Assembly: GCA_947307255.1 (NCBI GenBank)
Contig: CAMZIO010000002.1
Location: 1-64,000, forward strand
Direction: 5' to 3'
From: an uncultured Clostridia bacterium
GTDB lineage: Bacteria > Bacillota > Clostridia > Oscillospirales > Oscillospiraceae
Length of the DNA stretch: 64,000 bases
A program made the position numbers and the translations under genes. Shown in pieces: positions 46,649 to 64,000 of this stretch. The notes under the pieces were generated by a model. The model was not told the DNA's origin and made no database searches. It worked only from the letters and a program-made list of their open reading frames with translations. Numbering within the stretch: the stretch's first letter is position 1; each line of letters begins with the position of its first letter.

Positions 46649-46798
46649 CTCTGATAAAGGGTATGATTTTGCTCTTGTGATGATTCCCTATTATAACAGG
46701 TCGTCCGGAAAAAGGAAAGTCCGAGTTTCGGTTTTCAGCGCCCGGCATAAGATGAAACTGAGCGGAATGCTCAACTATCATCAAGGAGGAGTTCTTTC

Positions 46799-47332
46799 GT
46801 GGAATCCACCACAAAACCGGGGAAGCCGAACACTGACGCAGCATCCGCTTCCCGTCCGGCTAACACCACGCCGGCTGCCTCTACTTCAACGAACGCCGCC
46901 TCGTCAGATCGGTGCGGTATGGGCAGCGGTATGCTGCCTGCGTGCGCACCGCTGGCGTTTCCTTATGTACCGATGCAGGAGAACAATCCCGACCGCTATT
47001 CCCAGCAGGACGCCATGCGCGCCGGTACCCTGTTTCCGGGGCTGCATCTTCCCTTCCATCAGGAGCTTGACACACGCTTCCCGGCGTCGAATACTGCGCT
47101 TTCTGAGTTGATGGCGCTGGATTTTGCCGTCGATGAGCTTGGTTTATATCTCACGACGCATCCGAATGACGCGGAAGTGCTGGATCTTTACTGGTCGTAT
47201 ATCCGCCTTTCCCGCGAGGGGCGTGAAAAGTACCAGCAGATGTATGGCCCGCTGCTGCAGACCGATATCACGCCGCAGGAGTACAAGTGGCTCAAAGACC
47301 CATGGCCCTGGGATGTAGGAGGGGATCGCTGA
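46799..47332 (+). CDS. cotJA-cotJB: Spore coat CotJA-CotJB fusion protein
   Basis: CotJA-like PLAFPYVPMQ...GTLFPGLHLPF, then CotJB-like LMALDFAVDELGLYLTTHPNDAEVLDLY...YGPLL...WLKDPWPWD in one frame. Confidence 0.82.
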   Translation: MESTTKPGKPNTDAASASRPANTTPAASTSTNAASSDRCGMGSGMLPACAPLAFPYVPMQENNPDRYSQQDAMRAGTLFPGLHLPFHQELDTRFPASNTALSELMALDFAVDELGLYLTTHPNDAEVLDLYWSYIRLSREGREKYQQMYGPLLQTDITPQEYKWLKDPWPWDVGGDR

Positions 47333-47439
47333 TGTTTGTCTATGAAAAGAAACTGCAATATCCGGTAAAGATCAAAACGCCGAACCCCAAGCTTGCTATG
47401 GCGATTATTTCTCAGTACGGTGGACCTTACTACAATTAA
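47332..47439 (+). pseudogene. cotJC: Truncated cotJC (N-terminal 33 codons of the Mn-catalase-like coat protein)
   Basis: ATG overlaps cotJAB stop; MFVYEKKLQYPVKIKTPNPKLAMAIISQYGGPYYN* matches CotJC N-terminus then ends. Confidence 0.8.
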
Positions 47440-47462
47440 CTACTAATGAAGGGAGAATACCC

Positions 47463-47663
47463 ATGAAAACCATGACCACCCTCACCCTCTACGACCGCGC
47501 CTATGAGCGCACCCTGGAGCTCTGGCACGCCGAATCCACGCACCTGGAAGAATCCCGTCGCGCCGGCACGCCACCCGATCCTGATGTGCAGGAGCGCTAC
47601 GATCTTTACAACGCGCAGCTCTCCGAACTCTCCAGCATCCTGATCAAGCTTCGCGGTGAATAA
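47463..47663 (+). CDS. Hypothetical protein, 66 aa
   Basis: gaagggagaatacccATG; MKTMTTLTLYDRAYERTLELWHAESTHLEESRR... Confidence 0.5.
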   Translation: MKTMTTLTLYDRAYERTLELWHAESTHLEESRRAGTPPDPDVQERYDLYNAQLSELSSILIKLRGE

Positions 47664-47664
47664 G

Positions 47665-47699
47665 AAGAAGGCAGCACCACTCGGTGCTGCCTTCTTCTT
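47665..47699. terminator. Bidirectional terminator at the host/phage boundary
   Basis: aagaaggcagcaccactcggtgctgccttctt. Confidence 0.8.
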
Positions 47700-50600
47700 T
47701 TATCCTCCCAGCGACGGCAGGCTCAGCCCGCCCCCTCTGGCATTGCCGAGTTCCTTTGCATCCAGCACCTGCTGGCCGATGCTCCGGCTGTACGGATTGT
47801 TCTTCGCGCTCTTCGACGTTGTCATCAACTGCCACAGTACCGCACTGTGATTGCTCGGCAGTCCCGCATTTCCTCCCAGTGTTGGCAGGCTCAGCCCACG
47901 TACCGCGCCGCCCATGGCGTCGATGGCCGCCTTCACTTCGTCCTGGCTGTAGCTTCCGTTCTGGTTGGCATCATACTCCGGCATGATCTCCTTGAGTTTG
48001 ACGTAGCTCTCCGGCTGCACGCCGAACCTGTGCGCGATCTCGATCTTTTTATACTGATCTTCCGGCATGACCACGCTCAGCGCCTGCATCTGTTTCTCCG
48101 CGCCGCTCACCGCGTCCAGTGCTGCGCGCCACTTCTGCACGTCGCTAACCTCTTTCTTACCTTCCTGCGGTTTCAGTCCGCCTATCCCCTCGGCTACGCT
48201 TACCGCCGTCTTGATATCAAGCCCGGCGTCCTTGTACTCCAGCACCTTCCCGAGATCCATGCCGTCGGCCCGAAGTCTCATCGCCTGCGAAGGGTCCAGC
48301 CCCGCGTCCATCGCTCGAAGCAGCTTCGCGTACTGTGTCGGATTTCCGCCGTCCGTCTCCAGATCGGTCCCCATGACGTACCCCGCCGCGACCTTCGTCT
48401 GCTCCTTGTTCAGCTTCATTCCTGCCAGCGTGCTCAGCTTGTCCGCCGTACCGCCCGCATCCTTGAGCGTCATCACAACCTCGCCAGCCCGCCCGCTGTC
48501 CATGCCGGCGTCGGTCATGGCATCCATACCTTCGCGCTCCTTATCGCTGGCGAGCAGGCCGTAGAATACAATCGCCTTGCCCTTGTCGTTTATGTTGGAC
48601 GACTGCAGGATCTCCCTCTGGCGCTCCGCCTTGCTCTGCTCATCTCCTGCCTTTGCGCTTCTCAGCTCGTCGATCAGGCCATACGCCTCGCGGCTTTTCA
48701 CGCCTGCCGCGGTCAGATCCTCATAGATCGCCGTCTGCTTCGCGCTCAGGCTGTTGAAACCGTTGTTGACCCACTCGCGCGCTGGCTTCAGGCTGCTCTT
48801 TCCGAAAAACAGCGCCCTGGCGATGTTCCCCGCCGTCTCCGCTTTGGAGTTGTTGAACACGGGATACTGCAGCACCTTGTCGCCGTTGCTGTCCATCGAA
48901 TAGCTTCCGCCCTCGATGATCGCCTTCGTGCCTTTCCATGCCTTTTGCAGTTGGTTCCCGCCGAACGGCAGCGCCGCGTAGATCAGCGGCTTGCTCAGCT
49001 CTTTCCCCGCCGTGCTCAGACGCTTCTTTCCGCTCCACTTGTCGTTCACCGCGGCCTTGGCCAGATTCTCCACGTCCGGCAGCGAGCTGCTGATCGGGAT
49101 ACGCCCGCCGCCGAGGATCCCGCCGACCATCGGCAGCTCGTCCACAGCGTTCTTGGCCAGATTGCCCAGCGCCTCATACGTCCCGGTCTTCTCCGTTTTC
49201 AGCGACCTGTCCTCGCCGGTGATCGCTTCGATCATATTGGGCAGTTCATACCCGGTCAGATCTCCAGCCGTTTCGTTCAAAATGCCGATGGGGTCCAGCG
49301 CGCATCTGCGCCCGACGAAATACTCGTAAACGTCGTTGAAAAGGTATGCCCCCAGGAAGTATTTCAGCAGCGTTCCGACGAGCACCGCCATACCTCTTTC
49401 CCTGGCCACCTTCGGCAGATCCTTGAACACCTCGCTGAACTGATTGTTCACCTCCAGCTGGAACTGCGTGAACAGCTTCACAATCGGATTGCTGGACTGG
49501 AACAGCGTCGGCATGCTGCCCTTGCTCCGGTCCGCCATCACGCGCCGGGCGAATGCGTCGGCGTCGTCCATGGCCGCCTGCTCGCTCATGTTGTGCCGAA
49601 GATTCTGGTTGTAACGTGCGCGCACGATGCTGTCCGAAGCAAACCTGTCGATCAGCTCCATCGGCGTGCCCAGCACACCGGAGGCCTTTTGCTGCCAGTT
49701 TTTCACCAGCGGATCCGTCCCGCGCCTGCTCGTCAGAAAGGCCGACCGCTCCGCAAATCCGTCTTTGTTCTTGTAGGCCTGCAGCGTCTGCCACATGCCC
49801 TTGAGGATCTGCCCGCTCTCCAGCTGCGCGTTGGCCTGCGTCAGCGGGATGAAGTTGGTCAGCGCGCTGCCGATGTTGCCCGCGATCATATTGGCGCCCA
49901 CGCGGCTTTCCCAGTTTTTCATGATCGTATAGGCGCGCCGCCCGATCATGGCCTCCATGTTGCGGTCGTACTTGCTCTTCTTGTTGGCCAGCAGGTTGGT
50001 GTACTCCTCCAGCTCGTTGACGAAGTTGCCCAGCTCGAACTTGCCGTGCTCATAGATGGCGTCTATCTTTGTTTGCTTCTCGTCCTCCGTCAGCCGTTTG
50101 TCCTGCAGCACCTCGTCCACCTGCTTGCGGATTCCCTCGTCGCTCGTGCGATAGCGGATCTGCTGCGAAAGCGCGCGCAGGTTCTGGATGTTGTCGGTGT
50201 GGAAAATCACGTCGCCGGCGCCCTGCACGTACTTGTCAAAGCCCTCCACCGCGTCGTACGCCGTGTTGAAGCCCAGGCGCTCCTGCGCGTTTCCAAACCA
50301 TGCGATCCCCGGCTTGAAGGTGTGCGTCAGGCCGTTGATGGTCGTCGGCAACGCGGTGATCTCCGTCGTGATCCCCATCGCCTTTCCAAACTGCGTGAGG
50401 ATTCCGTCGCTGCTCCCCGGCTGGAAGTGCGGGAAGTACCCGTGGCGGTAGTTGATCGGCTCGTAGCCGTTGCGGACGCGCACCTCGTTCATCCGCTCAA
50501 AAAGCTCGTCATAGATGTCGCGGAAGTTCTGCACCGCCTGCTCGATCTTGGCAAAGTCCAGGTTCGGATTCTGCTCCTTCAGGTTCTCCACGATCCCCTG

Positions 50601-53600
50601 CCAGTCGCTCAGCGTCTTGCCGTCCCGCTCGCGCAGGCGGCCGCGGCTTTTCTGCAGCATTTCGATGTTGTCCGTCGCCTCGCCCAGCAGCTGCACGGCG
50701 TGCGCCTCGCTGACCTCGTTGCCCTGTTCGATCTTTCTGGAAAGGTTCATCTTCCGCACGCGGTCGCGCATCTCGTTGAGCCAGCGCGTCTTGTTCGCCT
50801 CGGCCTTATGTACCGGCTCGATGTACGCCTCGGTGATCCGCTTTGCTCCGGCCTTGTCCCGGAACACGTCCTCGATGTTGCGCTCCATCGTTTCGCGGGA
50901 CAGAAGCAGCCCTGCGATCTTGTCCTTCGTATGCCCTGCCTCTCGCAGCATGGCGTCGGCGCTCTCCCGCCGCGCGGCGCGGATCGAGCGCTTGAACTCG
51001 CGCAGCTGCTCAGCGTATTGCTCATACTCCCTCTTCGCCTCATAGACCTCGCGGATCCCCTTCGCGTTGCTGTCTCCCGGCAGGGACTCCGGTGTGATCT
51101 CGCCGCGCAGCAGCCTGCCGACCAGCAGCTCGTCGCTCTCCGTCAGCAGGTTGCGGCTCACCGCGCGGTCCACACCGCGCCGCAGCTGCTTCACCTGCTT
51201 CCAGGTCTCTTTCGCCTCGGCCACAGTCAGGATCTTCTTTTGCGGCTTCTCCGCTTTCTTATCCGCGTCATAGCGGCGCACCGTGCGCAGCTCCGTCAGC
51301 GTCTGGTTCACCGCCTCGGCAAAGTCGTTCTTTGCCCACGCCTTGAAGTCCTTGCCGTTCTGCTCGTCCAGCGTCTTCTCCACGCGGTCTGTGCTCTGCG
51401 ATACCTCCAGCATTCGCCGCAGCTGATCCGCCGGGCGCGTGATATCCGCCGGGAACATATCCGGCGCCATGTCCTGCAGCTGCTCATAGGCCACGTCCAC
51501 CGGAAGCCCGCCCGAATTGACGATCTTCAGCCTCCCCGTTGCACTCCTGCGCCAGTCTCCCCAATCCGTGAAGTCGGCCTTGTCCGTCTCGCTGATCGTT
51601 ACCGCCGTCGTGCGCATCCGGTTCCGGACCTCTTTGTACGTGTCATACATCTCGCTGTCCACGATCCGCCCCTGCTCCCAGGCTGTCTCAAACAGCCGGT
51701 CCACGGTCTCCTGCGAAACGCTGCCGCTTTGCAGGTACTCGTCGCTCATTTCCCGCACCATGCCCTGCAAATAATCCCGCCGCGCCCAGCTTTGCACGTC
51801 CAGCGCACCGCTGATGCGCCGCAGCATGGCATTCTCCGTGCGCTTGAGATAGTCCCTCGCCTTTTGCGGCAGCGTGTCGCGCACATTCTCCGCGGTCTCC
51901 TGCGCGCTGTCCTCGATGCTGAACGCCTTCTTCCCGCCGTCCTCCATGCCCAGCTGCCGCGCAATCTCGCGCTGGAACGGCGTGCGGGTATCCGTTTTCT
52001 CCAGTGTCGGCAAACTCAGCCCTCTTACATTTTTCTGTTTAATTTCCTTGACATCTTGCCCGCTGTCTGGTACAGTATCGCCAGAGACCAGCGGCTCTGG
52101 ACGGCTTTTCTTGGCTTCGGCCAAATCAGTCACGCGACGCTGGTCTTGTTCTGTGTAAATGCGATGTACCCAAAACAAATTGCGTTGCGGGCTTTGCCGA
52201 ATGTCAATATAGACCGGATAGGTTTCTCCTCCAATCTGCACGTCAGCCTTGATATAGCTGTACGTCAGATTGGAGTTTTGATTATGTTCATTAGCCTGAT
52301 CCAGCGCTACAATTTTGCCGTTTTCAATAATCTCCGGCAGCATCCTTGCCGCAGCCAACTTCAGCTCTTTGATTTTCCTCGGAAGCGTTTCGTACCTGTT
52401 TCCTCTTCCGAACGTCTCAAAGATGCCTCGCTTGCTGATTTCAACGTTTCTGCCGGTCGCGTTGTTGGTGACTATCCTGCGCCCATCCGGTCCCAAGATA
52501 CCTTCGTTTTTCAGCGTGTCAAAAACCTGGTTCTGAACGTGAACGTAATCGTTCACCTTTTCGATCCCGAAGCCCTGCAGCAACTGTTGCGCTTCCTCGT
52601 CGCTGATGCTGTACTCCCTCAGCATAGACACGTCGTTCAGGCTCTCGTCCTCCTCCAGTGCGTCCATGGCTTCGTTGTATTCCTCCTCGGTCAGCTCCCC
52701 GGCCTCCAGACGTGCCGCCAGATCCTCGCGGCCCCGGTTTACCTGCTCGTTCACCCGCCCGGCCTCATAGTTCCCGCGCGTCTCACTGAGCGCACGGCTG
52801 TAAAGCTCCCGCGTCCGCCGCAGGAAGGCGCGCTCCTCCGCGTTCTTGTTGCCCAGCTTGGCCAGCAGTGCGTCGATCACGTTCAATATCCGCTCGCCGA
52901 AGCTCGGCTCATAGGCCACGATCTCCCGGATAGCTGCCTCGTCCGTCAGCAGCCTTTTCTCCACGAACTCGGCCACCAGCTCCCGCTCCGCGCTCTCCCG
53001 GTCCAGCGTAACGCCGTGGCGCGCGTAGCTCTCCTGCTTGCGCGTCAACGCCTGCGCAAGGTCCTCCTGCCCGCCGATGCGGTTGAGAATCATGCTCTTG
53101 ATCCGCGCGTAATCCGCCGCGCCCTCCAGTGTGTGCGTCAGCTCGTGCCCCACGATCTGTGAAACGGCGTTGCCGCTGTTCACGTTCACGTAGATCTTCC
53201 CGCTCTTTCGATCGAAGTAACCGTTCTCTCCGGCGTCGCCCTGATAGAATACGACCTCCCGGCCGATGGCCTCGCTCAGCCGCTGCACGCGCTCCGTGGT
53301 CTCGCGGTCCACGTTCAGCACCCTTGCCGACCATACGAAATCCGTCTCCGGTTCCATGCCCATCTGCCGCGCGACCTCGCGCTGGAAGTCCGTGCGGTTA
53401 TCCTGCCTGTTCTGGGCTTGTGCCGTCTCCCCCTGAAAATATCTCCCAAGGTTTGGAAACTGCTGAGCATCAAAAGGCTTTGCCTGCTGCGCAGTCTCCG
53501 TCTGTGCCGTCTGCGGCTCCTGTGCCGCCGGACGGTTTTTTTCATTTTCTGCAGAAGTCTCCGGCGCTTTATCCGTCTGCTGAATCCTGCGCGCCTCGTC

Positions 53601-55028
53601 CGTCGCCTGCCGCAGCAGCACGCCCACCTCGCGGTCGCTCACGCTCTCGCCGCGCGCAATCTTATCCTGGATGATCTGCGCGCTCTTGCTCGTTTCGTCG
53701 CCCATGCCGAGACCCATCTGCACCAGGTCGTTGAGCATCCCCTGCTGCTTGATCGCCGCGCCGGTCTCCTGGTATGCGCGCTCCAGCTTCGCCTTTTGTG
53801 CCGTGCTGTTCACACCGCTTGCGGCCAGCGCCTGCCCGCCGCCGAGCACGCCGCCGACCACCGCGCCGCCGGCATACTCCTGTGCGGACGTCCGCGGGTT
53901 AAGCACTGCGTTCTCGTCCGTCAGCGAGGCGATCGGATTCTTTTTCCCGTAGGCAAGGTTCTGCAGGCCTCGCTCCACAATGCCCTGCCAGACTTCCTCT
54001 CCGCCCTCCTCGTGCGCCGCTTTCAGCCAACGCTTGAAGGTCATCGGGCCTTCCTTCAGCTCGCCCGGCAGCGTCTCAAGACCGCCGCCTACTTCGATTG
54101 CTGCGTTGCCCAAACCGTTTGTGAGCGCGTAGAGCGACGCCTGCATCTCGCTTGCACCGTCCTCCTTTGCCTGTGCATAGCTGTTTCCCGCCGTCTGCAG
54201 GAAGCTCGTCCAGTACTGTGGATTCTTCGCGTAACTCATGGCAATCTGCCGCACGCTGTTGAGGATCGTTGGGCTCGCCTGCGCCGCCGTCGACAGAGCC
54301 TCCAGCCCTTGTCCGCCCAGGCTCATGCCGCCGCTCATGAACGCGCTGACCGCCTGCGGGATCGCCGCCACCGTTGCCGCGCCGTATCGGTCGAGGAGTT
54401 CTGCCGCCTTACCGCCTTTTTCGATGTTTTCCGCGTACTTTTTTTCTGCCGCCTGCTGCTCGCGTTTGATTCCCTCGTTCCACTTGTAAAAAACGCCGTG
54501 CTGCTCCTGCAGATCGTCAAGACCGGTCAGCGCCTCCGGAACGGCAAAGAGCGCCTTTTCCAGCCACGACAGCGTTTCGGACATACCGCGCGCTGCACTT
54601 GTCGTGCCCTTCTCCGCCATTCCTGCGAGGAGCTTCCCTGCAGAAAAGCCCGTCCCGCTTTTCTGCTGCAGCGCACCGCGGCGCGGGTCAATTCGCCGCG
54701 CACGTTCCCGCGCCGTTTCTTCTTCGCCCCCGCCGACCGTCTCCGTCTCTGCCGTTGGCTCAATCACACGCTCCCGCGCATAGGATTCCTGTTTCTTGCG
54801 CTGTTCTATCTCCGCCGCCCGCGCGCGCAGGCGGTCTCTCGCACTCGTTTCCTGCTGCCCCTGCATCCGCTCTACCGTGCGCGCCGCGTCCAGCAGATCA
54901 AGCATCTGGTTTCGCTGCTGCCTCTCTATCTCCGGCTGTGCTTTAATCTCCGGAAGGGCAGCGGCGCGCCGGCGCAGACGATCTCTCGCTGTGCCGGCGC
55001 CGTTATTGTTGAAATATCCCAGTGGCAT
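47700..55028 (-). CDS. 2442-aa phage polyvalent/internal virion protein with HExxH metallopeptidase domain
   Basis: Single 7.3-kb frame; IVGHELTHTLEGAADYARIK; central low-GC domain; Gln/Ala-rich linkers; C-terminal DANQNGSYSQDE loop. Confidence 0.75.
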   Translation of the reverse strand: MPLGYFNNNGAGTARDRLRRRAAALPEIKAQPEIERQQRNQMLDLLDAARTVERMQGQQETSARDRLRARAAEIEQRKKQESYARERVIEPTAETETVGGGEEETARERARRIDPRRGALQQKSGTGFSAGKLLAGMAEKGTTSAARGMSETLSWLEKALFAVPEALTGLDDLQEQHGVFYKWNEGIKREQQAAEKKYAENIEKGGKAAELLDRYGAATVAAIPQAVSAFMSGGMSLGGQGLEALSTAAQASPTILNSVRQIAMSYAKNPQYWTSFLQTAGNSYAQAKEDGASEMQASLYALTNGLGNAAIEVGGGLETLPGELKEGPMTFKRWLKAAHEEGGEEVWQGIVERGLQNLAYGKKNPIASLTDENAVLNPRTSAQEYAGGAVVGGVLGGGQALAASGVNSTAQKAKLERAYQETGAAIKQQGMLNDLVQMGLGMGDETSKSAQIIQDKIARGESVSDREVGVLLRQATDEARRIQQTDKAPETSAENEKNRPAAQEPQTAQTETAQQAKPFDAQQFPNLGRYFQGETAQAQNRQDNRTDFQREVARQMGMEPETDFVWSARVLNVDRETTERVQRLSEAIGREVVFYQGDAGENGYFDRKSGKIYVNVNSGNAVSQIVGHELTHTLEGAADYARIKSMILNRIGGQEDLAQALTRKQESYARHGVTLDRESAERELVAEFVEKRLLTDEAAIREIVAYEPSFGERILNVIDALLAKLGNKNAEERAFLRRTRELYSRALSETRGNYEAGRVNEQVNRGREDLAARLEAGELTEEEYNEAMDALEEDESLNDVSMLREYSISDEEAQQLLQGFGIEKVNDYVHVQNQVFDTLKNEGILGPDGRRIVTNNATGRNVEISKRGIFETFGRGNRYETLPRKIKELKLAAARMLPEIIENGKIVALDQANEHNQNSNLTYSYIKADVQIGGETYPVYIDIRQSPQRNLFWVHRIYTEQDQRRVTDLAEAKKSRPEPLVSGDTVPDSGQDVKEIKQKNVRGLSLPTLEKTDTRTPFQREIARQLGMEDGGKKAFSIEDSAQETAENVRDTLPQKARDYLKRTENAMLRRISGALDVQSWARRDYLQGMVREMSDEYLQSGSVSQETVDRLFETAWEQGRIVDSEMYDTYKEVRNRMRTTAVTISETDKADFTDWGDWRRSATGRLKIVNSGGLPVDVAYEQLQDMAPDMFPADITRPADQLRRMLEVSQSTDRVEKTLDEQNGKDFKAWAKNDFAEAVNQTLTELRTVRRYDADKKAEKPQKKILTVAEAKETWKQVKQLRRGVDRAVSRNLLTESDELLVGRLLRGEITPESLPGDSNAKGIREVYEAKREYEQYAEQLREFKRSIRAARRESADAMLREAGHTKDKIAGLLLSRETMERNIEDVFRDKAGAKRITEAYIEPVHKAEANKTRWLNEMRDRVRKMNLSRKIEQGNEVSEAHAVQLLGEATDNIEMLQKSRGRLRERDGKTLSDWQGIVENLKEQNPNLDFAKIEQAVQNFRDIYDELFERMNEVRVRNGYEPINYRHGYFPHFQPGSSDGILTQFGKAMGITTEITALPTTINGLTHTFKPGIAWFGNAQERLGFNTAYDAVEGFDKYVQGAGDVIFHTDNIQNLRALSQQIRYRTSDEGIRKQVDEVLQDKRLTEDEKQTKIDAIYEHGKFELGNFVNELEEYTNLLANKKSKYDRNMEAMIGRRAYTIMKNWESRVGANMIAGNIGSALTNFIPLTQANAQLESGQILKGMWQTLQAYKNKDGFAERSAFLTSRRGTDPLVKNWQQKASGVLGTPMELIDRFASDSIVRARYNQNLRHNMSEQAAMDDADAFARRVMADRSKGSMPTLFQSSNPIVKLFTQFQLEVNNQFSEVFKDLPKVARERGMAVLVGTLLKYFLGAYLFNDVYEYFVGRRCALDPIGILNETAGDLTGYELPNMIEAITGEDRSLKTEKTGTYEALGNLAKNAVDELPMVGGILGGGRIPISSSLPDVENLAKAAVNDKWSGKKRLSTAGKELSKPLIYAALPFGGNQLQKAWKGTKAIIEGGSYSMDSNGDKVLQYPVFNNSKAETAGNIARALFFGKSSLKPAREWVNNGFNSLSAKQTAIYEDLTAAGVKSREAYGLIDELRSAKAGDEQSKAERQREILQSSNINDKGKAIVFYGLLASDKEREGMDAMTDAGMDSGRAGEVVMTLKDAGGTADKLSTLAGMKLNKEQTKVAAGYVMGTDLETDGGNPTQYAKLLRAMDAGLDPSQAMRLRADGMDLGKVLEYKDAGLDIKTAVSVAEGIGGLKPQEGKKEVSDVQKWRAALDAVSGAEKQMQALSVVMPEDQYKKIEIAHRFGVQPESYVKLKEIMPEYDANQNGSYSQDEVKAAIDAMGGAVRGLSLPTLGGNAGLPSNHSAVLWQLMTTSKSAKNNPYSRSIGQQVLDAKELGNARGGGLSLPSLGG

Positions 55029-55038
55029 ACGCTCCTCC

Positions 55039-56430
55039 TTACTTAAGCAGGTTCAGGTTCATCCCATTCTTCTGTTGATTCGCTCCGCGCACTGTGCGCC
55101 GATAGATCGGATCGCCCTTGCTGTCCGTCCCTACCATCTCGATCATACCGAGCGCCTCCAGCTTCTCCGCGTCGTCCCAGCTCACCGTACCGTATCCCGG
55201 CACGCCAACCTCATTGCGGCTTCCGCCGGTCGTGTTCCCCGCATATCCCGCCGCACGCAGATCCGCTTCCGTGTAACCCATCGCCAGCAGTTGGGAGATC
55301 ACTTCACTGCTGTAATCTCCGGCCTGAAACCGTGCCACCGGGTCGTCTGCGGTTGCTCCTCCGCTGTTCGCTGCGTTCCCGGAGGATCTTCTGCCGCTCC
55401 CGCCGCTGCCTCCGGACAGCTTGGCCGCCGCCTGCTGCATCTGGAATTCCCGGTATGCCTGATCCGCCGTCGGCGTCCCCGCCGCGAGGCCCAGCGCGTT
55501 TGCGCCGCTATCCGGCACGTAGCCGGAAAGCTGGTAGAGGGCCAGCGCGTTGTCAAACGCCTGCTGATCCGCCGCCTGTCTCGCCTGCTGCGCCGCCATA
55601 CCGCGGTTGTAGTCCGTCTCGCTCTGGCCTCTCAGATTGTCCAGGTACGTCTGCATCATGTTGTAATCGTTCAAATACTGATTGTACGCCTGCTGGCGGT
55701 CCGTATTGTACTGGCCAAGCTGATCCAGATACTTCGCATAGTCCATCTGTTCCTGCGTGTTCACGGCGTTCAGGTCGCTGAGCTTCCGGCTGTACTCGTC
55801 GCGGTATCGGTCATACGCCTGCTGATAAAGCTCCGGGATTTTATCGCTCAGCTTCGTCGCGTAGTAGTCTCCGGCCTGCGTCGCCGCATTCACCGCATAG
55901 CTCGACGGTCTCCCGCCGCTGGCTGCGCTTGCCTGGGCAAGCGCGTTTGCTGTGGCCCGCTCGCCCTCGCGCAGATACTGTTTTTTGTAGCTCGCCCAGT
56001 TGGGGTCCTGCTCTTTGCTCCAGCTGAAGTCCGGCCGGTTGAGAATGCTCTCCAACAGCATCTGCTGCTGACTTGCATAGCGATTGTCGTATGTCGGCGC
56101 ATCCGCGTAGGAAAACTGACCGAACGATCCGATTTTCCCCAGCATATCGTCGATCCGGTTTTCGTACAGTCCGGTGGAAATGTACCGGCTTCCGTCGCTG
56201 CCGCCGGTGTAATTTCCGTAGCTCGACCGCAGCCGGTTGGCCGCTTCGTTCGCCAGCAGCCGCTGTTCGTCCGTTTTTGCGTTGTTATAGTCCTGCTTGA
56301 GACTCAGGATACTCATGCCGAATTCCGGGTGCTGCCTGGCAAGATCCAGGTCATAGCTGGAAAAATTCTTCATCAGCCCGGCGCTGTTTGCCGCCCGCTC
56401 AAAGTCTTCGTAACTGTAAGGCATCTTCAA
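55039..56430 (-). CDS. Putative phage virion protein
   Basis: 463-aa Tyr/Gln/Asp-rich protein in the phage structural cluster. Confidence 0.5.
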   Translation of the reverse strand: MKMPYSYEDFERAANSAGLMKNFSSYDLDLARQHPEFGMSILSLKQDYNNAKTDEQRLLANEAANRLRSSYGNYTGGSDGSRYISTGLYENRIDDMLGKIGSFGQFSYADAPTYDNRYASQQQMLLESILNRPDFSWSKEQDPNWASYKKQYLREGERATANALAQASAASGGRPSSYAVNAATQAGDYYATKLSDKIPELYQQAYDRYRDEYSRKLSDLNAVNTQEQMDYAKYLDQLGQYNTDRQQAYNQYLNDYNMMQTYLDNLRGQSETDYNRGMAAQQARQAADQQAFDNALALYQLSGYVPDSGANALGLAAGTPTADQAYREFQMQQAAAKLSGGSGGSGRRSSGNAANSGGATADDPVARFQAGDYSSEVISQLLAMGYTEADLRAAGYAGNTTGGSRNEVGVPGYGTVSWDDAEKLEALGMIEMVGTDSKGDPIYRRTVRGANQQKNGMNLNLLK

Positions 56431-58034
56431 TTCCTCCCTGTCCTCGATCTCAATTCGCTGCCGGAATACCGCTCCCGCGTCATGGAATAGACGCGGCAGC
56501 CGCCCGTCCCGCTGAGCTTTACGCGGTAGTGATCCGCTCGCCTCGGTATGATCGGCAGGTAGTAGCTGCGCTTCACATCAGCCTGCAGCGTGCTCACCTT
56601 CTGCCACGTCCCCACGGAGTCGAAACGCATCCACACGTCCACCGTCGCCCCCGTGTCCACCTCAAGGCGGATCTGCAGCTTGCTCAGCCCCTTCTTGTTG
56701 GGATCGCCCTCGGTAAAGTCCGCGAATTCTGCAAACCACGCAAAGTCCGCCTCCTCTGTCGCCCCGTCGGCCGCCTCCGTGGCAAACAGTTTTCCGTCCG
56801 TCCCCAGGCAATAGGTGTTCGCGCCGTACCTTGCCCAGCCCACGGCGCGCGTCGCGTCCTCACGGTGCCACAGGCCGCGCTGCGCGTCGTAAACGAACAG
56901 GCTCCATCCGCCGCCAACCTTCTTCGTGCTCGCGTAGTATTTCAGTCCGTCGCTTCCGGCCACGGCATTTTCGTACCGGTCCAGGCCGAAGGCGTCTCCG
57001 ATCGGCTGCGGGATCCCGCCGCTATACGCCACGAATCCCGCCGTACTCTGGTAGAACAGTATTTCCCCGGCCACCGCCAGGCTCATCGCGCTTCCCTCGG
57101 CCACGCCCAGCGTCGCACTGCCCATCATCTCAAAATTGCTCGGCATCGAGCCGTACACCTTGTAGATGTGATCTTCCTTGAAAAAAATCGGATATCCGAG
57201 ATACGATACGCAGGCCGTAAACCTTCCCGCCGATCCGGTATCCACGGCGTAGCTGTCAGTGTCCAGGCCGTCGTACACGTTCCAGTTGAATATATCGCCC
57301 AGCTTGCTCGCGTAGATCGTTCGCTCGTCGCAGCCCCACAGCCGATTTTCATTTTCACAGCAATACAGAAGATCCGGCATCTTCCGCGCGATCGTTACGC
57401 CGGACTCTGAATAGGCCGTCGTCCCCTCGCTCCCGCTCAGCTTGAACACGTTTTCATAGAAGCGTAGCTTGTTCCCGTCGATCTCGCGTATCACCGGCGT
57501 CTTGTTGTTCTCCGGGTGCACCGTGCAGCCGGAGATCGTTACCGCGTCGCCCACCCGGAAGTAGCTTGCCCAGTTCACGCCGTTCGCCCGGATCGTGTTG
57601 GCCTCGGCCTCTTCTTCAAAAAGCGTCCCGTTGTCAAACGTTACGCTCCCGCTCCACGAGCTCTCCAGGCTGCCGAATTCGTCCGTCTCCACGTTGTAGA
57701 ATTTCTTGTCCGGCAGGATCACGACGTACGCGCCCAGCGCCGCAAACGTTTTCGCGCCGTCGCTCACGCTGCCCTTGGCCGTCCCGTCGTAGTAGAAGGT
57801 CGTCCCGTCCACCCAGCACAGCTTGTCCCATGAAAACAGGCCGTTCGGCTTCGTCAGCGTGCGCAGCGTCCACCGCTTTCGCCGCGTGGACAGCACCGGA
57901 TAGTGATCCGAGCACAGATTCTCCATGTCGTAGATTTCTCCATCACCGGCGCCGAGCGTGTGGCAATATCCGCGCCACTGCGTTTGCGTCGCCTTCTGGA
58001 TTCTGTCCGCAACGCGCATCGTCGGCAGTTTCAT
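56427..58034 (-). CDS. Putative phage tail/head stabilization protein
   Basis: MKLPTMRVADRIQKATQTQWRGYCHTLGAGDGEIYDMENLCSDHYPVLSTR; beta-propeller-like repeats. Confidence 0.55.
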   Translation of the reverse strand: MKLPTMRVADRIQKATQTQWRGYCHTLGAGDGEIYDMENLCSDHYPVLSTRRKRWTLRTLTKPNGLFSWDKLCWVDGTTFYYDGTAKGSVSDGAKTFAALGAYVVILPDKKFYNVETDEFGSLESSWSGSVTFDNGTLFEEEAEANTIRANGVNWASYFRVGDAVTISGCTVHPENNKTPVIREIDGNKLRFYENVFKLSGSEGTTAYSESGVTIARKMPDLLYCCENENRLWGCDERTIYASKLGDIFNWNVYDGLDTDSYAVDTGSAGRFTACVSYLGYPIFFKEDHIYKVYGSMPSNFEMMGSATLGVAEGSAMSLAVAGEILFYQSTAGFVAYSGGIPQPIGDAFGLDRYENAVAGSDGLKYYASTKKVGGGWSLFVYDAQRGLWHREDATRAVGWARYGANTYCLGTDGKLFATEAADGATEEADFAWFAEFADFTEGDPNKKGLSKLQIRLEVDTGATVDVWMRFDSVGTWQKVSTLQADVKRSYYLPIIPRRADHYRVKLSGTGGCRVYSMTRERYSGSELRSRTGRN

Positions 58035-58414
58035 TCCTCTGCCTCCCACTCGATCCACGGCGCGAGCGCTTCAAGCTGCTCCGGCGTGATCGTCTCCGGC
58101 GCTCTCACGCGCATTTTTTCGCCCTCTGCTCCGGTTTCCGTTTCGGCCAGCTCTTTCCTTGCCTTCTCGTAATCTGCCGCGCACGCGCCGGCACGCAGCG
58201 CGAATCGCCCGTTTTCATTCACTCGGATCCTTCCGTCTTCGTCCCTGGCCGCATATTCCTCTACCAGCTTGCGCTCTTCCTCCACGAAAAAGTCTTTCAG
58301 ATCGCTCGTCGCGCGCTTCACCTTCACCACGGCCAACGCCGTGGCGTACGGCATTTTTTCGCGCGAGAGTGCCTGCGCCGCCATATAGGCGTTCACCGCT
58401 TCGATCAGCTTCAT
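58031..58414 (-). CDS. Small phage protein
   Basis: MKLIEAVNAYMAAQALSREKMPYATALAVVKVKRATSDL...; overlapping start/stop with neighbours. Confidence 0.5.
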   Translation of the reverse strand: MKLIEAVNAYMAAQALSREKMPYATALAVVKVKRATSDLKDFFVEEERKLVEEYAARDEDGRIRVNENGRFALRAGACAADYEKARKELAETETGAEGEKMRVRAPETITPEQLEALAPWIEWEAEE

Positions 58415-59577
58415 GTTGTCTCCCCTCTCAGTTGTCTCTTGATCCGCTGTATCTCGTTGATACACAGCACCACCAGCTCTCCGTATGCGATGGAGTACAC
58501 CTTATCTCCATCCTCCACGCGCCAGCCGAGCGCGCCGAAATCGTGCACGCGGGTCTGCGTCTCCTTCAGCGCGTCGAGCACCTCCTGCGCAATCAGCCCG
58601 GTGCAGCGCCGGCTTCGGTCGCCCTTGCGGTAATACGTGCACGGCCGCAGCCTGTCAAAGATCCGCTCGAAGGCGTCCACGTCATAGCGGATATCCTCCT
58701 TCACGCGCCGATCGGAGGACACCTGCATCTGGCTGGTGGCGTAGCATCCGCCGTTTGCGACGAATATACTGTGCGGGCCCGCGCCGTAGGTCATGCGCAC
58801 GCCGCCCGAAGTTACGACGACGTAGTTGCTCAGGCTTATGTCTGAGATGGCGACGCCAGCAAACTGCGCCGCATTGGTGGCGCCCATATAGCCGTATACG
58901 GTGCTTCCGTATTTTGCGGCCAAAAATCCGTCCATCGCCAAATTCGCCGCACTCAGCGTCCCTGTGGTGATGTTCCCTGCGTTGATGACGGTCTCTCCTC
59001 CCGTCTGGCTCAGGTTCGTGAAGGTAACGTAGCCGTCCAGTTGGATATTCTGCGCCACGAGCTGGATCGCCCGGTCGCTGAGTGTGAAGTTGCTTGCGCT
59101 CGTCCCGCTCGCCACGATCCAGTTGATCTTCTGCGCCGTCTGCGTAACGCTTGAGATATCCCCCTCCGCGCTCTGCACACGGGCAGTCAGACCCGCCGCC
59201 GTCTGCTGCAGCACGGACACGTTCCCCTCCGCGCTTTGTATCCGCGCCGTCAACGCTGCCTCGGATAGCTGCAATGCAGAGATATTTCCCTCGGCGTCGC
59301 TCACCTGCGCGGCAAGTCCCTCCGCCGTCGCCGCCAGCATCGTCAACTTTCCTTCCTCGTCTTCCAGGCGCGCGTACACGGGCTCCGTGATCACCTGCTG
59401 CAGCTTATCCAGTGCCGCGGCGTTAAAATTCCGTAAATCCAGGTTGTTCAGCGTATAGCGCATCTGCTCCACCAGCATGAACACGTAATTCTGAATCGTC
59501 GTAACCTTCTCGTCCGTGCTTTCGCCCTGTGTAAAGGTCGGGAAATTCGTGTCAATATATAGCCAGTTCGAGGGCAA
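58411..59577 (-). CDS. Phage tail fiber with C-terminal S74 intramolecular chaperone
   Basis: SSDRRVKEDIRYDVDAFERIFDRLRPCTYYRKGD...TGLIAQEVLDAL...INEIQRIKRQL. Confidence 0.82.
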   Translation of the reverse strand: MPSNWLYIDTNFPTFTQGESTDEKVTTIQNYVFMLVEQMRYTLNNLDLRNFNAAALDKLQQVITEPVYARLEDEEGKLTMLAATAEGLAAQVSDAEGNISALQLSEAALTARIQSAEGNVSVLQQTAAGLTARVQSAEGDISSVTQTAQKINWIVASGTSASNFTLSDRAIQLVAQNIQLDGYVTFTNLSQTGGETVINAGNITTGTLSAANLAMDGFLAAKYGSTVYGYMGATNAAQFAGVAISDISLSNYVVVTSGGVRMTYGAGPHSIFVANGGCYATSQMQVSSDRRVKEDIRYDVDAFERIFDRLRPCTYYRKGDRSRRCTGLIAQEVLDALKETQTRVHDFGALGWRVEDGDKVYSIAYGELVVLCINEIQRIKRQLRGETT

Positions 59578-59637
59578 TTCTCTTCCTCCTTTCCGGAAAG
59601 CGGGCCGGCCGTTCCGGCCGGCCCGCGGCCTCAGCGC

Positions 59638-60264
59638 TTATTCCAGCTTGCCCAGACGGTCAAGGACCGTCAGCACACGGCAAAGATCCTCGCTCAGATT
59701 CAGCTCGCCCTTTGCGTCTCCTTTGAGCGCGCCTTTCTCCACGCACTTGCGTACCGCCTGCGCGTACCACTCCGGCACGTCTTTGAGCGTTTTATAAATC
59801 ACCATCTTTTTTTCCTCCGTCTTCGTCTCTGTCTTTTTCGGCGGCATCATCGGCGGCAATATCCCCGCGCGCAGCAGCGCCCCCGTCCATCGGCCTCTGT
59901 CGTCCCATTGCAGGTGCGGACGATCGGTAAAGCTCTTCCAGTCGCCGCCCCAGGAAAAGCCGAGCTCCTTTGCGATGGCGGCGACCTCCGCGAAAAAGGC
60001 AAGATCCCGGTACTCCTGCCCCGGAACGTTTTTGCAGAAATCGAAGGCCAAGCCGCAGCCGTGGAAGGTCGTTACCTTGCTGTTTGTAACGATCTGACCG
60101 GGGCGTGTCCGTCCCTGCGCATACAGCAGCGCCTGGTACTCGTCGTCTCGCAGTGTCTGCGTGATCAGCACGTGCAGGCCCCGCCTGGCGCACCGCTCCA
60201 GCAGCACCTCCGCGTTCAGCTTAACGTCGGCGCGCAGATCGTCAAGGCTCCTGCTGTTGATCAT
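59638..60264 (-). CDS. M15-family D-Ala/L-Ala-D-Glu peptidase, phage endolysin
   Basis: LRDDEYQALLYAQGRTRPGQIVTNSKVTTFHGCGLAFDF...DRPHLQW. Confidence 0.88.
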   Translation of the reverse strand: MINSRSLDDLRADVKLNAEVLLERCARRGLHVLITQTLRDDEYQALLYAQGRTRPGQIVTNSKVTTFHGCGLAFDFCKNVPGQEYRDLAFFAEVAAIAKELGFSWGGDWKSFTDRPHLQWDDRGRWTGALLRAGILPPMMPPKKTETKTEEKKMVIYKTLKDVPEWYAQAVRKCVEKGALKGDAKGELNLSEDLCRVLTVLDRLGKLE

Positions 60265-60601
60265 GCCGCTCCCTCCCCGTCAGGTATCCGATCAGCCTCT
60301 CGATCACGCCCAGCGCATCCGCGTACAGCTCGTCGTAGCCGTACATGGCGGCATAGGCTACCAGCAGCCCCAGCAGCGCCCCGGCAGCCAGCGCGCCGAG
60401 GCACGCCCACACACTCAGCCAGCTCTGCAGTGTGATCGCCGCGAAGCACGCGCCCTCGCTCAGCACGACCGCCCAGAGCACCACCACGTGCTCCGGCGTT
60501 TTGACCTTCACAACGCGCTTCGTAATTTCGGTGAATACGTTCACCGCCGCCACCAGCGCGGCGATCAGCGCCGGCAGCGGCACAAATTCAAAGATCTTCA
60601 T
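60242..60601 (-). CDS. Phage holin-like membrane protein
   Basis: MKIFEFVPLPALIAALVAAVNVFTEITKRVVKVK..., hydrophobic segments; overlaps endolysin start. Confidence 0.75.
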   Translation of the reverse strand: MKIFEFVPLPALIAALVAAVNVFTEITKRVVKVKTPEHVVVLWAVVLSEGACFAAITLQSWLSVWACLGALAAGALLGLLVAYAAMYGYDELYADALGVIERLIGYLTGRERHDQQQEP

Positions 60602-60872
60602 GTACGTCCTCTCTTTCCCGGCTCTTGCCGAAAATAAATCCGTCGTTGTGTTCAAAGATGTTTCCCGCGGTCTTGAGCATTGCAACACCCAAAATCGCAT
60701 CGATCGCCGACTGAGACAGCTCCACCACCGGGAACGGCTGGCCGAACTTCACTGTCGCATAGCCGGCAATCAGATAGCTGATCGTCACCCAGCAAATCGC
60801 CGCGATCGGAATGATCACGTAGAGCCATTTTGTTACGCTCAACAAAATGCTTTTCTTCTTCCGTGTCTTCAT
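60588..60872 (-). CDS. Phage-region membrane protein
   Basis: Hydrophobic segment VTKWLYVIIPIAAICWVTISYLIAG; overlapping starts and stops. Confidence 0.6.
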   Translation of the reverse strand: MKTRKKKSILLSVTKWLYVIIPIAAICWVTISYLIAGYATVKFGQPFPVVELSQSAIDAILGVAMLKTAGNIFEHNDGFIFGKSREREDVHEDL

Positions 60873-61237
60873 GCGCCGCCTCCAGTCTCATACTCGGCCA
60901 GGATCGACCGCTCGATCTCCTTCTGCGCCTCCTCGGCGTTTTGGAACTCCTCCCAGGCGTCCTCCAGCTCCCCGTTGGGCGGCGGCTTAATCAATGCGTG
61001 ATGCATCCAGAAAAGCAGACGCCCCTCTGCGCGGCGCCGCCGTTGCTCGGCCTCGCTGCGCTTTCGCTTGATCTTCAGGCGCTCCTGCCGCTTTGCCTCC
61101 GCGCTCACAAGCTTCTTGTCAAAGTAGCGTTTGAGGTAATGCAGCGCCAGCCCGGAGATCAGGAAACTCACCAGCGCACCCGGCACAGCGTTCGCCGCCG
61201 CGCGCAAAAACTCACTCATCTGTATCCTCCCCGGCAA
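60869..61237 (-). CDS. Phage-region membrane/coiled-coil protein
   Basis: N-terminal TM then a charged helix KRQERLKIKRKRSEAEQRRRRAE. Confidence 0.55.
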   Translation of the reverse strand: MPGRIQMSEFLRAAANAVPGALVSFLISGLALHYLKRYFDKKLVSAEAKRQERLKIKRKRSEAEQRRRRAEGRLLFWMHHALIKPPPNGELEDAWEEFQNAEEAQKEIERSILAEYETGGGA

Positions 61238-61303
61238 GCTCCAGCAATCGGTCCAGTCGGAGCAGCCGATCCAAAATCCGAAAAATGATCCGTTCCATGC
61301 CGC

Positions 61304-63949
61304 TCACCCCTCCATGTATTTCGCTGCCAGCTCAATCCCGCTGACCTCTGCCGTTACCGTGAGCGTGTTGCTTCCAGCCGTCAGCCGCAAAGCCTGTGGC
61401 GCTGCGCTCTCGGTCGTCGGCGCGTCCTGTACCCAAATGGATACGGCCCCGGCGTCCGAATAAAACACGTTCCCGCCGGCAATCGTGTCGATTTGCTGCG
61501 GCGTGAGCTGGTATACGACCGGCTCGATCGGCAGAATGAAGCGAAATGCCGTGGCGTCGTATTTTGCGTTAAACAGCGTTACGATGTTGTCGCCCTCGTG
61601 GTACTCTGGCAAAGCACCAAAAGGCACATACATATGTAGATATTGTGTTGCCGAGCCGATGGTGCCCGCCGTATTGGCGTGCCAATCGTACACGCTGCCG
61701 GACACGACAGGAATCAAATTACCGCGGCATTTGTGTATATCGGTGCTGCTTCTGCGCAAATAGCTGCCGTCAAGGTATATTCTGCCATAGAAGCCATTGG
61801 CGCCCTTTGAAAAGGCTCTCCAGTCTGTGCCGGTCCGCATCACTCGATCCACCGTCAGCGTACCGTTGACAATATCCAGCGTACCGCCGTACACCGTTCC
61901 GGCAGAGACCGGGAATGTTTCGGGATAGTCTGTCGGCGCAACGTACGGCTCCCAATCCGTAGCGGTCGAGCCGCGTTCAAGCTGGATGTAGCAATCCGCG
62001 TTGACCTCCACGCCGACGGTCGCGCAGTTGACGTTGATGTAACACGCCGTCGCCTCGGTCAGCGTTACCGTCGTTTGTGTTCTGGTGCTGTTGATCCAGT
62101 CAACGCTTGCCGGGGAACCCGTAACTCGTCGGAGCTGGATCACGCAGTTGACGCACGTGCCGACCATCGAAAAAGTGTATGTGCCTGCCGGTAAGTTGAT
62201 CGCTCTGCTGGACGGAATCGCGGTGCGGTTCGCGCCCGCAGTGGTCGTACCGCTCGCCAAAACCTTGGAATCCACGCACGAAAACGTAACGCCGCCGTTC
62301 GTGTACTCCGCCATGTCCTGCACGTCCAGCAGGTTTTTCACGGCCTTTGTCAGCGTTGCCTCCGTCCATCCCGCAATCGGGCACTCGTTGCTATAAGGCG
62401 CATAGCTTGTCGCCGTGTCGCCAAGCTCAAGCTGCGGCGTGCACAAGGAGATATCCACATCGTCAATGTCTGCAAACCGATCGCTCGCACGCATGACGGT
62501 GAGCCGGATATAGGCCGCGCTCGTGTCCGAAATCGTAAATGTTTTGGTTCGGTTCCCGGTAATTTCGCTGTCGCTGTTCGTCGATCTGTTCCCCAACCAA
62601 TTTTTCGACGCATCAAAGTAGTTGTAGTTGATCCAGGCTATGTCTTGCGTTTGCTGCTGGTCAATGCTCATCGTGTAGGCCGCGCCCGGCGTGATGGCGA
62701 TATACGGCGACGTTTGACGGGTGCTATATGCCTCCCAAGTACCATTGTTATATTGGCCGACAGCCCAGCCATCGCTTGGGCAGACGTTTTTCCCGGCTCC
62801 ACCCGCCCATGGTTTGTCGTAGCCGTGGAGGTCTTGCGTTGGCTCTAAACTGACGATCGCCGCGTTGATCGGCGTCGCCGCCTCCGCGTCGAACGTCGCC
62901 ACAGCGCCGCTGTACTCCGTGCCCGGCGCGTGTACGACGATCGCGCCGACGTCCAGCGCCCCGGTGCTGCTGAGGTACGGCCTGCCGACGTCCTGCGTCC
63001 CGTCGTACAGGATAGCCTCCGTGCGCCGCGTTACCTCGCCGGAAATGATATCCTGCGTGTCCGCTACGCTGCCCACCGCAAGCAGATCAACCGCGCCCGC
63101 CGTGTCGCCGCTGGTGGCGGTGATGACCTCCGGCGTGCCGGTTACGGTCCTCACGATGTGGGAGTAATCGTAGCCTCCAACGGTCGGGGTCGTGCCGACC
63201 GGCTCGAAAAAGGTCTCGGATACCGTGTCATACCAGCCAATTTCTCCGTCGCTCACACGCTCACACGGAATACCCTTGAATCGCAAGCCGTTAGGCCCTT
63301 CTACCTCAACATTCCCAAAGAGTGTACCTCTAAAAGACGCCGCCGAGGTGGTTGTGCTCGTTGTGCCAATGAAGAAATCATTAGGACAGACGAAATCAAT
63401 CTCTTCCCATGTGCTGTCAATCTCCATTCCGGCGGCGCCGGTCGGTGTGATTGCGACATCGTATCTCTTACCCTTAATCGATTTGCTACTGTATTGCCCG
63501 GAGTAATATCGCAGGTATTTGTAATTATCCGAGTTCGTGTACAAAGAATAGTTCGCACCACTTGCCGATCCGCTGTAACTGCCGATTACGTTGCAAGCAT
63601 TATCTATCTCATATGAGAATCGAAGCGTGTCAGCGCCAGTCAGATGGAAGTCCGGCACCACATAATAGCAGTTGTTATTCATCGACATGGACAAAAGCCG
63701 CCTGTATCCGTCGGGCAGCTCGTCGTCGTGCAGACCAATCACGCCGTTATTGCACTTGAGCGCGCCGCTCTCAACCGTGCATTTCCCACGCTGGATTAGT
63801 GAGCGAAGCAGGCCCGCCTTGGCGTTTGGAAGCGACAGAGGGCTCACTCCGTCCACTGTAACCACAGCCCCACTGGCGCCTCCGATCACGCCCATGCCGC
63901 GCAGCCAGATCAGCCGGTGCAGCAGCGTCCTATCGTTGCGCACAATCAT
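61304..63949 (-). CDS. Large phage tail/receptor-binding-like protein with beta-rich modules
   Basis: Repeated TYTFSM.../YIRLTVMRA.../LELGDTATSYAPY carbohydrate-binding-like modules. Confidence 0.6.
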   Translation of the reverse strand: MIVRNDRTLLHRLIWLRGMGVIGGASGAVVTVDGVSPLSLPNAKAGLLRSLIQRGKCTVESGALKCNNGVIGLHDDELPDGYRRLLSMSMNNNCYYVVPDFHLTGADTLRFSYEIDNACNVIGSYSGSASGANYSLYTNSDNYKYLRYYSGQYSSKSIKGKRYDVAITPTGAAGMEIDSTWEEIDFVCPNDFFIGTTSTTTSAASFRGTLFGNVEVEGPNGLRFKGIPCERVSDGEIGWYDTVSETFFEPVGTTPTVGGYDYSHIVRTVTGTPEVITATSGDTAGAVDLLAVGSVADTQDIISGEVTRRTEAILYDGTQDVGRPYLSSTGALDVGAIVVHAPGTEYSGAVATFDAEAATPINAAIVSLEPTQDLHGYDKPWAGGAGKNVCPSDGWAVGQYNNGTWEAYSTRQTSPYIAITPGAAYTMSIDQQQTQDIAWINYNYFDASKNWLGNRSTNSDSEITGNRTKTFTISDTSAAYIRLTVMRASDRFADIDDVDISLCTPQLELGDTATSYAPYSNECPIAGWTEATLTKAVKNLLDVQDMAEYTNGGVTFSCVDSKVLASGTTTAGANRTAIPSSRAINLPAGTYTFSMVGTCVNCVIQLRRVTGSPASVDWINSTRTQTTVTLTEATACYINVNCATVGVEVNADCYIQLERGSTATDWEPYVAPTDYPETFPVSAGTVYGGTLDIVNGTLTVDRVMRTGTDWRAFSKGANGFYGRIYLDGSYLRRSSTDIHKCRGNLIPVVSGSVYDWHANTAGTIGSATQYLHMYVPFGALPEYHEGDNIVTLFNAKYDATAFRFILPIEPVVYQLTPQQIDTIAGGNVFYSDAGAVSIWVQDAPTTESAAPQALRLTAGSNTLTVTAEVSGIELAAKYMEG

Positions 63950-64000
63950 CACTCCTTAAAGCTAAACTGTTTCCCCCAGGCGTCGGCGGTCTCCTTAAAA
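63949..64000 (-). CDS. 3' end of another phage gene (partial)
   Basis: Frame ...FKETADAWGKQFSFKE* with stop overlapping the downstream ATG. Confidence 0.45.
   Translation of the reverse strand, partial: FKETADAWGKQFSFKE

Follow-up and report, generated by a model that had tools for sequence, protein, structure and literature searches.

The cotJ Locus and the Interruption of cotJC

The window analysed here is a stretch of 64,000 nucleotides from an uncultured Clostridia bacterium, and positions beyond its right end carry the prefix C2, the numbering of which is that of the window itself (Table 1). It contains a cotJ operon in which cotJA and cotJB form a single open reading frame (ORF); ORFs of like length and content are found in two other genomes, G002 and G007. 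The operon is preceded by a −10 element of the kind recognized by sigma-E and sigma-K, a motif type that precedes cotJA, at a distance of some 50 nt, in 29 of 35 loci, with 4.0 expected. Directly after the fused frame begins cotJC, whose translation over 47332–47439 reads MFVYEKKLQYPVKIKTPNPKLAMAIISQYGGPYYN and then stops. The first 32 residues match the start of the Mn_catalase profile (2.7e-7), and after codon 32, at position 47426, the gene is cut, such that the frame runs on to a stop codon at 47437–47439 inside an inserted element. The other 167 codons are found on the same strand of the same contig, 41.0 kb farther downstream. When the entire genome (1.66 Mb in 61 contigs, 86% complete) was searched for Mn_catalase, exactly these two pieces were returned, and a second, full-length cotJC was not found in it.

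Joining the two parts at the core that they share, GGTGGACC, takes out 40,995 bp and yields MFVYEKKLQYPVKIKTPNPKLAMAIISQYGGP followed by DGELGASLRYLSQRFSMPYPE..., a frame of 198 codons with no stop. The joined protein aligns to the Lactobacillus plantarum catalase 1jku (3.4e-17) with Glu35, the Glu-x-x-His motif and the later Glu and His positions all kept, residues that we take to be metal ligands. A preliminary description of the window had proposed that cotJC begins after cotJB and is then cut, that phage-type genes follow the cut, and that an attachment site lies within 47413–47430; the catalase match, the PHROG and Pfam matches of the genes that follow, and the position of the shared core bear this out. 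It had also placed the rest of the gene, including a specific 3′ motif and a second copy of the core, past the prophage and to the right of position 64000, where all of them were indeed found, and it was correct in expecting that excision would rebuild cotJC, that no complete copy exists elsewhere (as far as the 86%-complete genome extends), and that the 66-aa ORF at 47463 belongs to the element.

Table 1. Features of the interrupted cotJC locus and of the prophage within it.
Feature	Position	Strand	Basis or remark
sigma-E/sigma-K-type −10 of cotJ operon, CATAAGAT	46746..46753	+	motif type common to cotJA loci
fused cotJA-cotJB	46799..47332	+	Pfam CotJA 7e-11, CotJB 8.1e-24
cotJC 5′ part, codons 1–32	47332..47426	+	Mn_catalase positions 1–32
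attL core GGTGGACC	47419..47426	+	identical to attR core
prophage, 41.0 kb (share in window)	47427..64000, on to C2:88421	.	phage gene matches, cores
66-aa ORF inside element	47463..47663	+	ORF list
2442-aa phage protein with LPD3 domain	47700..55028	-	Pfam LPD3 1.4e-12
internal virion protein	56427..58058	-	phrog_511, 1.9e-76
tail fibre-like protein	58411..59577	-	phrog_5481, 1.4e-13
endolysin	59638..60264	-	phrog_6523, 1.3e-34
head, portal, terminase genes	C2:66775-73938	-	beyond window
candidate directionality factor, 67 aa	C2:82967-83170 (= L010:2967-3170)	-	homology to minimal elements' small genes
S24 repressor, CI-like	C2:83566-84204	+	beyond window
large serine recombinase (LSR), 486 aa	C2:86927-88387	+	Resolvase, Recombinase, zinc-ribbon domains; phrog_95
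attR core GGTGGACC	C2:88414-88421	+	identical to attL core
cotJC 3′ part	C2:88414-88923	+	beyond window; Mn_catalase positions 30–198 at C2:88414-88878, E 1.4e-40

The Prophage and Its Recombinase

Structural, packaging, lysis and lysogeny genes are all present in the insert (among them, in addition to those named in Table 1, genes for a helicase, the small and large terminase subunits, the portal, the major head protein and a replication initiator), and by gene content it looks like a complete prophage. The 66-aa ORF near its left end has no PHROG or Pfam match, and the 2442-aa protein has no PHROG match, LPD3 being the sole domain recognized in it. The LSR gene ends 26 bp before the attR core, and the attP site assembled from the two inner flanks of the element has arms inverted about the core, agreeing at 16 of 25 positions. 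Three hallmarks of an intervening element are present at this locus: a sporulation gene is interrupted (cotJC, in an operon with a sigma-E/K-type −10), a short direct repeat stands at both ends with the frame restored on joining, and a site-specific recombinase is encoded in the element beside one end. The host genome carries spo0A and a full-length sigma-K-like gene.

LSR-A, as the relatives of this recombinase are called here, occurs in 27 of 301 genomes of the family. At 25 of these loci, cotJC is present within 1.5 kb as a fragment cut near residue 28–36; the remaining two loci stop at contig ends. In the GTDB genome collection, a cotJC fragment accompanies 65 of the 80 best-scoring LSR-A loci, nearly always directly adjoining the LSR. 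Isolates with LSR-A and a cotJC fragment include Pseudoflavonifractor gallinarum DSM 107456, P. phocaeensis An569, Ruminococcus flavefaciens SAb67, Agathobaculum sp. Marseille-P7918, Anaerosolibacter carboniphilus DSM 103526, Sinanaerobacter BAD-6 and Petroclostridium sp. X23. A cotJC edge is also found on 13 of 80 viral contigs, and other viral contigs (e.g., L203, L206, L207, L212 and L244) have an uninterrupted palindromic attP-like site after the LSR, which fits unintegrated phage. Phage records yielded a single relative of the LSR, a distant one at 44.7%. Judged by these gene neighbourhoods, LSR-A is a recombinase family fixed on the cotJC site.

Recurrent Splitting of cotJC

Among the genomes of the genus, nine have an intact cotJC and seven a split one; in two the gene was not found. 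A cotJC match was obtained in 319 of 401 genomes of the Oscillospiraceae-like family, about 115 of which (counted by reading of the result table) have no full-length match, and in a class-wide sample fragments only were seen in about 50 of the 238 genomes with a match; both counts are inflated by fragments at contig ends. The 71 family genomes that were searched again have two or three cotJC fragments each, and in nearly all of them the interruptions fall at one or two of the following places: near profile positions 32 (site A), 64 (site B) and 150 (site C); G401 is cut elsewhere, near position 52. Doubly cut genes occur in the combinations A + B (G167, on one contig, and G046, G041 and G001), A + C (G404 and G407) and B + C (G128). 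Split copies are found in single-contig genomes (G114, with 3.1 kb, G381, G560, with 8.3 kb, and G790, together with the doubly cut G517 and G738). Over all genomes the elements in cotJC measure 2.3–47 kb, and they are present in complete genomes and isolates as well.

Aligned to 1jku, the A core falls three codons before Glu35, the B1 core encodes Gly-Thr-Glu, with the second glutamate of the metal site beside it, and the C core encodes Ala-Ala-Glu, with the third; all three glutamates are presumably ligands. On this alignment no single part of a split cotJC could encode a full metal site. The recombinases fall into four clades, namely A (25 tips, support 0.975), B1 (16 tips, 0.997), B2 (2 tips) and C (2 tips), and because B1 and B2 are separate, site B was taken twice.

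At the lower end of the size range are minimal elements of 2.3–6 kb, in which the LSR is accompanied by host-like cargo and, in many cases, by a small gene; the LSR frames of a few small elements are shortened. By sequence, the cargo of small elements includes a RecQ-like helicase, a pyrimidine-nucleoside phosphorylase-like protein, a MATE-like transporter, sugar kinases and Amidase_6, and carriers of host-like cargo are L034 (G015), L100 (G114), L101 (G182), L107 (G319), L109 (G408) and L180. One 19-kb site-B element in cotJC (L032–L033, G012) carries a 1152-aa Cas9-like protein and a long CRISPR-like repeat array. In G013, where cotJC is present intact as well, a second cotJC 5′ part (L040, residues 8–67) lies at the end of contig C20, possibly owing to a strain mixture.

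A Candidate Partner Gene and a Mother-Cell-Type −10 Element Before It

Besides the LSR, several small LSR-A elements (G068, G167, L122, L127 and others) have a divergent small gene encoding a protein of 51–93 aa with the conserved pattern ...EQR..A..L...YLNELFRGRAVF.... The corresponding gene of the window's prophage, missed by a regular-expression search, was located by homology from these minimal elements, and its 67-aa product shares 55% identity with the G068 protein over 53 residues. Its neighbours are a small HTH gene and an operator-like palindrome; the latter, upstream of the gene at about L010:3215–3240, is the perfect palindrome TTGTATCGTAATACGATACAA and probably constitutes a phage repressor operator. 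Elements at site B1 have a different small gene (FLxxYxxAVLLAL...), usually before the LSR. None of the small proteins has a convincing match in Pfam or PHROG. We regard the small protein of the LSR-A elements as a candidate directionality factor of their LSR.

The motif CATANNNT stands 14–40 nt before the start codon in 10 of 21 distinct copies of the small gene, the window's included, where 0.5 would be expected, although these copies are related sequences rather than independent tests and their −35 region is not constant. The motif is of the same −10 type as that found before cotJA; most of the ten read CATAG..T, and the candidate −10 of the small gene is CATAGGCT. It should be kept in mind that the −10 elements of sigma-E and sigma-K are very alike in C. 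difficile (PMC3789822). Upstream of LSRs overall the same motif is enriched (20 found, 6.6 expected). Since it is absent from the 420 nt upstream of the window's LSR, control in the window's element would seem to be placed on the small gene.

Selection on Split Genes and Alternative Explanations

A view based on ordinary phage biology is that a prophage has inactivated a dispensable coat gene, that it leaves only at phage induction with no role in development, and that cotJC is targeted only because ligand-coding DNA is very conserved. The window's prophage does look complete and repressor-controlled, and since CotJC does not seem to matter much for assembling the coat in B. subtilis (PMC3533761), some lineages may simply have lost cotJC. 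Moreover, some splits are beyond repair: in G793, G437, G711 and G160, simple excision cannot rejoin the parts, which are separated by 157 kb to 1.1 Mb or sit on opposite strands. Against this view stand the sequences of the split genes themselves. The joined frame is open in full register at 24 of 25 junctions, a few of which have a shared string of only 2–3 nt. Junctions were set by frame register; the longest shared string alone misplaced those of G197, G408, G162, G387, G107, G003 and G381, all of which except G381 could be placed by register. For species pairs that have the same small element in common, split cotJC copies are under strong purifying selection: in G070 and G214 (4.8 kb, same gene order) the protein is 100% identical at a dS of 0.47 (omega 0.005), and omega is 0.023 for G197 and G319 and 0.022 for G182 and G274, the LSRs of these pairs giving 0.08–0.21. 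This is not what a permanently broken gene would show. The window's own split gene gives 0.05–0.08 against intact relatives (median of intact pairs 0.053), a value that says little alone because the insertion may be recent. Phage-free elements furthermore retain the recombinase and often the small gene, and a mother-cell-type −10 precedes the latter. With these observations in hand, simple inactivation appears unlikely.

It might also be imagined that the two parts act as separate genes and give a two-chain or shortened protein, since both parts stay open and the 3′ part has an internal ATG (L010:8471). That ATG lies after Glu35, so that neither part would have a full metal site, the left parts read on into the element, where they acquire codons of no relation to cotJC and then a stop, and other ligand motifs are themselves interrupted by cuts B and C; we consider this very improbable. 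Finally, the wrong joining of a phage contig into cotJC during assembly or binning, conceivable in a draft of 61 contigs and 86% completeness, is ruled out as the cause of the pattern by single-contig genomes and isolates with the same cuts and by the shared cores, and is next to incredible at this locus, where both junctions lie within one 103.6-kb contig and have an 8-nt core in common.

A Proposed Model for Developmental Excision

What we consider probable is that the temperate phage in cotJC is a developmental intervening element, excised in the mother cell by its LSR together with the small protein. The reading of the locus as a sporulation intervening element, put forward in the preliminary description, is supported by the sequences compared here, and the picture is wider than the one proposed there, with three insertion sites, four recombinase lineages and doubly cut genes. 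For regulated excision, relatives provide strong indirect support, because split genes are under purifying selection and minimal elements keep a recombinase and often a small gene, about half of whose copies have the −10. From these data we infer excision as such, its cell type and timing, and the small protein's role in directionality.

The following course of events can be envisioned. A temperate phage would integrate by means of its LSR at a conserved attB within cotJC and so divide the coat catalase gene in two, a split that would be cheap during growth, since only the mother cell requires cotJC. The LSR would be made in most cells, and the small protein would be produced from its sigma-E/sigma-K-type promoter in the mother cell, and also on phage induction, turning the LSR towards excision. 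Recombination of attL with attR at the core would then release the phage from the mother-cell chromosome as a circle, whole cotJC would be expressed with cotJAB, and the forespore would retain the prophage.

Relation to Known Intervening Elements

To our knowledge, the spore-gene intervening elements known so far comprise a handful in Bacillus and a few in clostridia. SP-beta in spsM of Bacillus subtilis is likewise a prophage in a spore-envelope gene. It has an LSR and a small partner gene whose start is closely preceded by a mother-cell −10, and its excision restores the frame, although the gene, recombinase and small protein are all different and excision is proven for SP-beta and inferred for cotJC (PMC4191935). 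For its partner gene sprB, transcription begins 20 nt ahead of the start codon, from a sigma-E/K promoter with a perfect −10 and an imperfect −35, a geometry that the small-gene promoters of cotJC elements resemble (PMC4191935). Experimental precedents for a recombinase and its partner are SprA/SprB (PMC4191935) and CD1231/CD1234 (PMC5025042). The latter pair belongs to skin in sigK of Clostridioides difficile, where a large serine recombinase likewise works with a directionality factor, CD1234, that is under sigma-E; the likeness is one of role, and skin splits a sigma factor gene, whereas cotJC encodes a structural coat enzyme and is split at three sites (PMC5025042). In Bacillus cereus ATCC 10987, gin is a small non-phage element in gerE, a spore gene restored during sporulation, and is comparable to the cotJC elements of 2.3–6 kb, in contrast to the full prophage of the window (PMC5595907). 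A prophage-like element in a clostridial spore-coat-related gene is yin, in yabG of Clostridium botulinum V73, but it is reported from a single strain, while cotJC elements recur across many genera (PMC10747680). The attachment site of phi027 in C. difficile R20291 lies beside a CotJC homologue (cotG), adjacent to the gene with no split reported and restoration not proposed (PMC11222575, PMC12122855). No element inside cotJC is reported in the open-access papers found; as far as the open literature shows, the class of mechanism is known, and the target, its recurrence and the scale are new.

Implications

Here, recombinases that are not related to one another have repeatedly split one structural gene, in a class that includes many uncultured gut species. 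The comparative data suggest that roughly a third of a large gut-bacterial family may routinely rebuild cotJC by cutting out DNA when making spores. We lean, with some reserve, towards the broader proposal that about a third of the Oscillospiraceae-like family, and among the sampled Clostridia perhaps a fifth, have cotJC in two or three parts, to be joined only in the mother cell; that its metal-ligand codons became attachment sites independently in four or more recombinase lineages; and that phages repeatedly decayed to elements of 2–6 kb in which a recombinase and a directionality factor would form a fixed DNA-splicing system. The cotJC elements form a natural series, with seemingly active phages at one end and domesticated remnants at the other, and they supply new pairs of recombinase and candidate partner protein with known sites. 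Automated surveys will score cotJC as absent or broken in many gut spore-formers in which it may be only interrupted, and if excision does take place, programmed DNA rearrangement would be a common part of sporulation in these bacteria.
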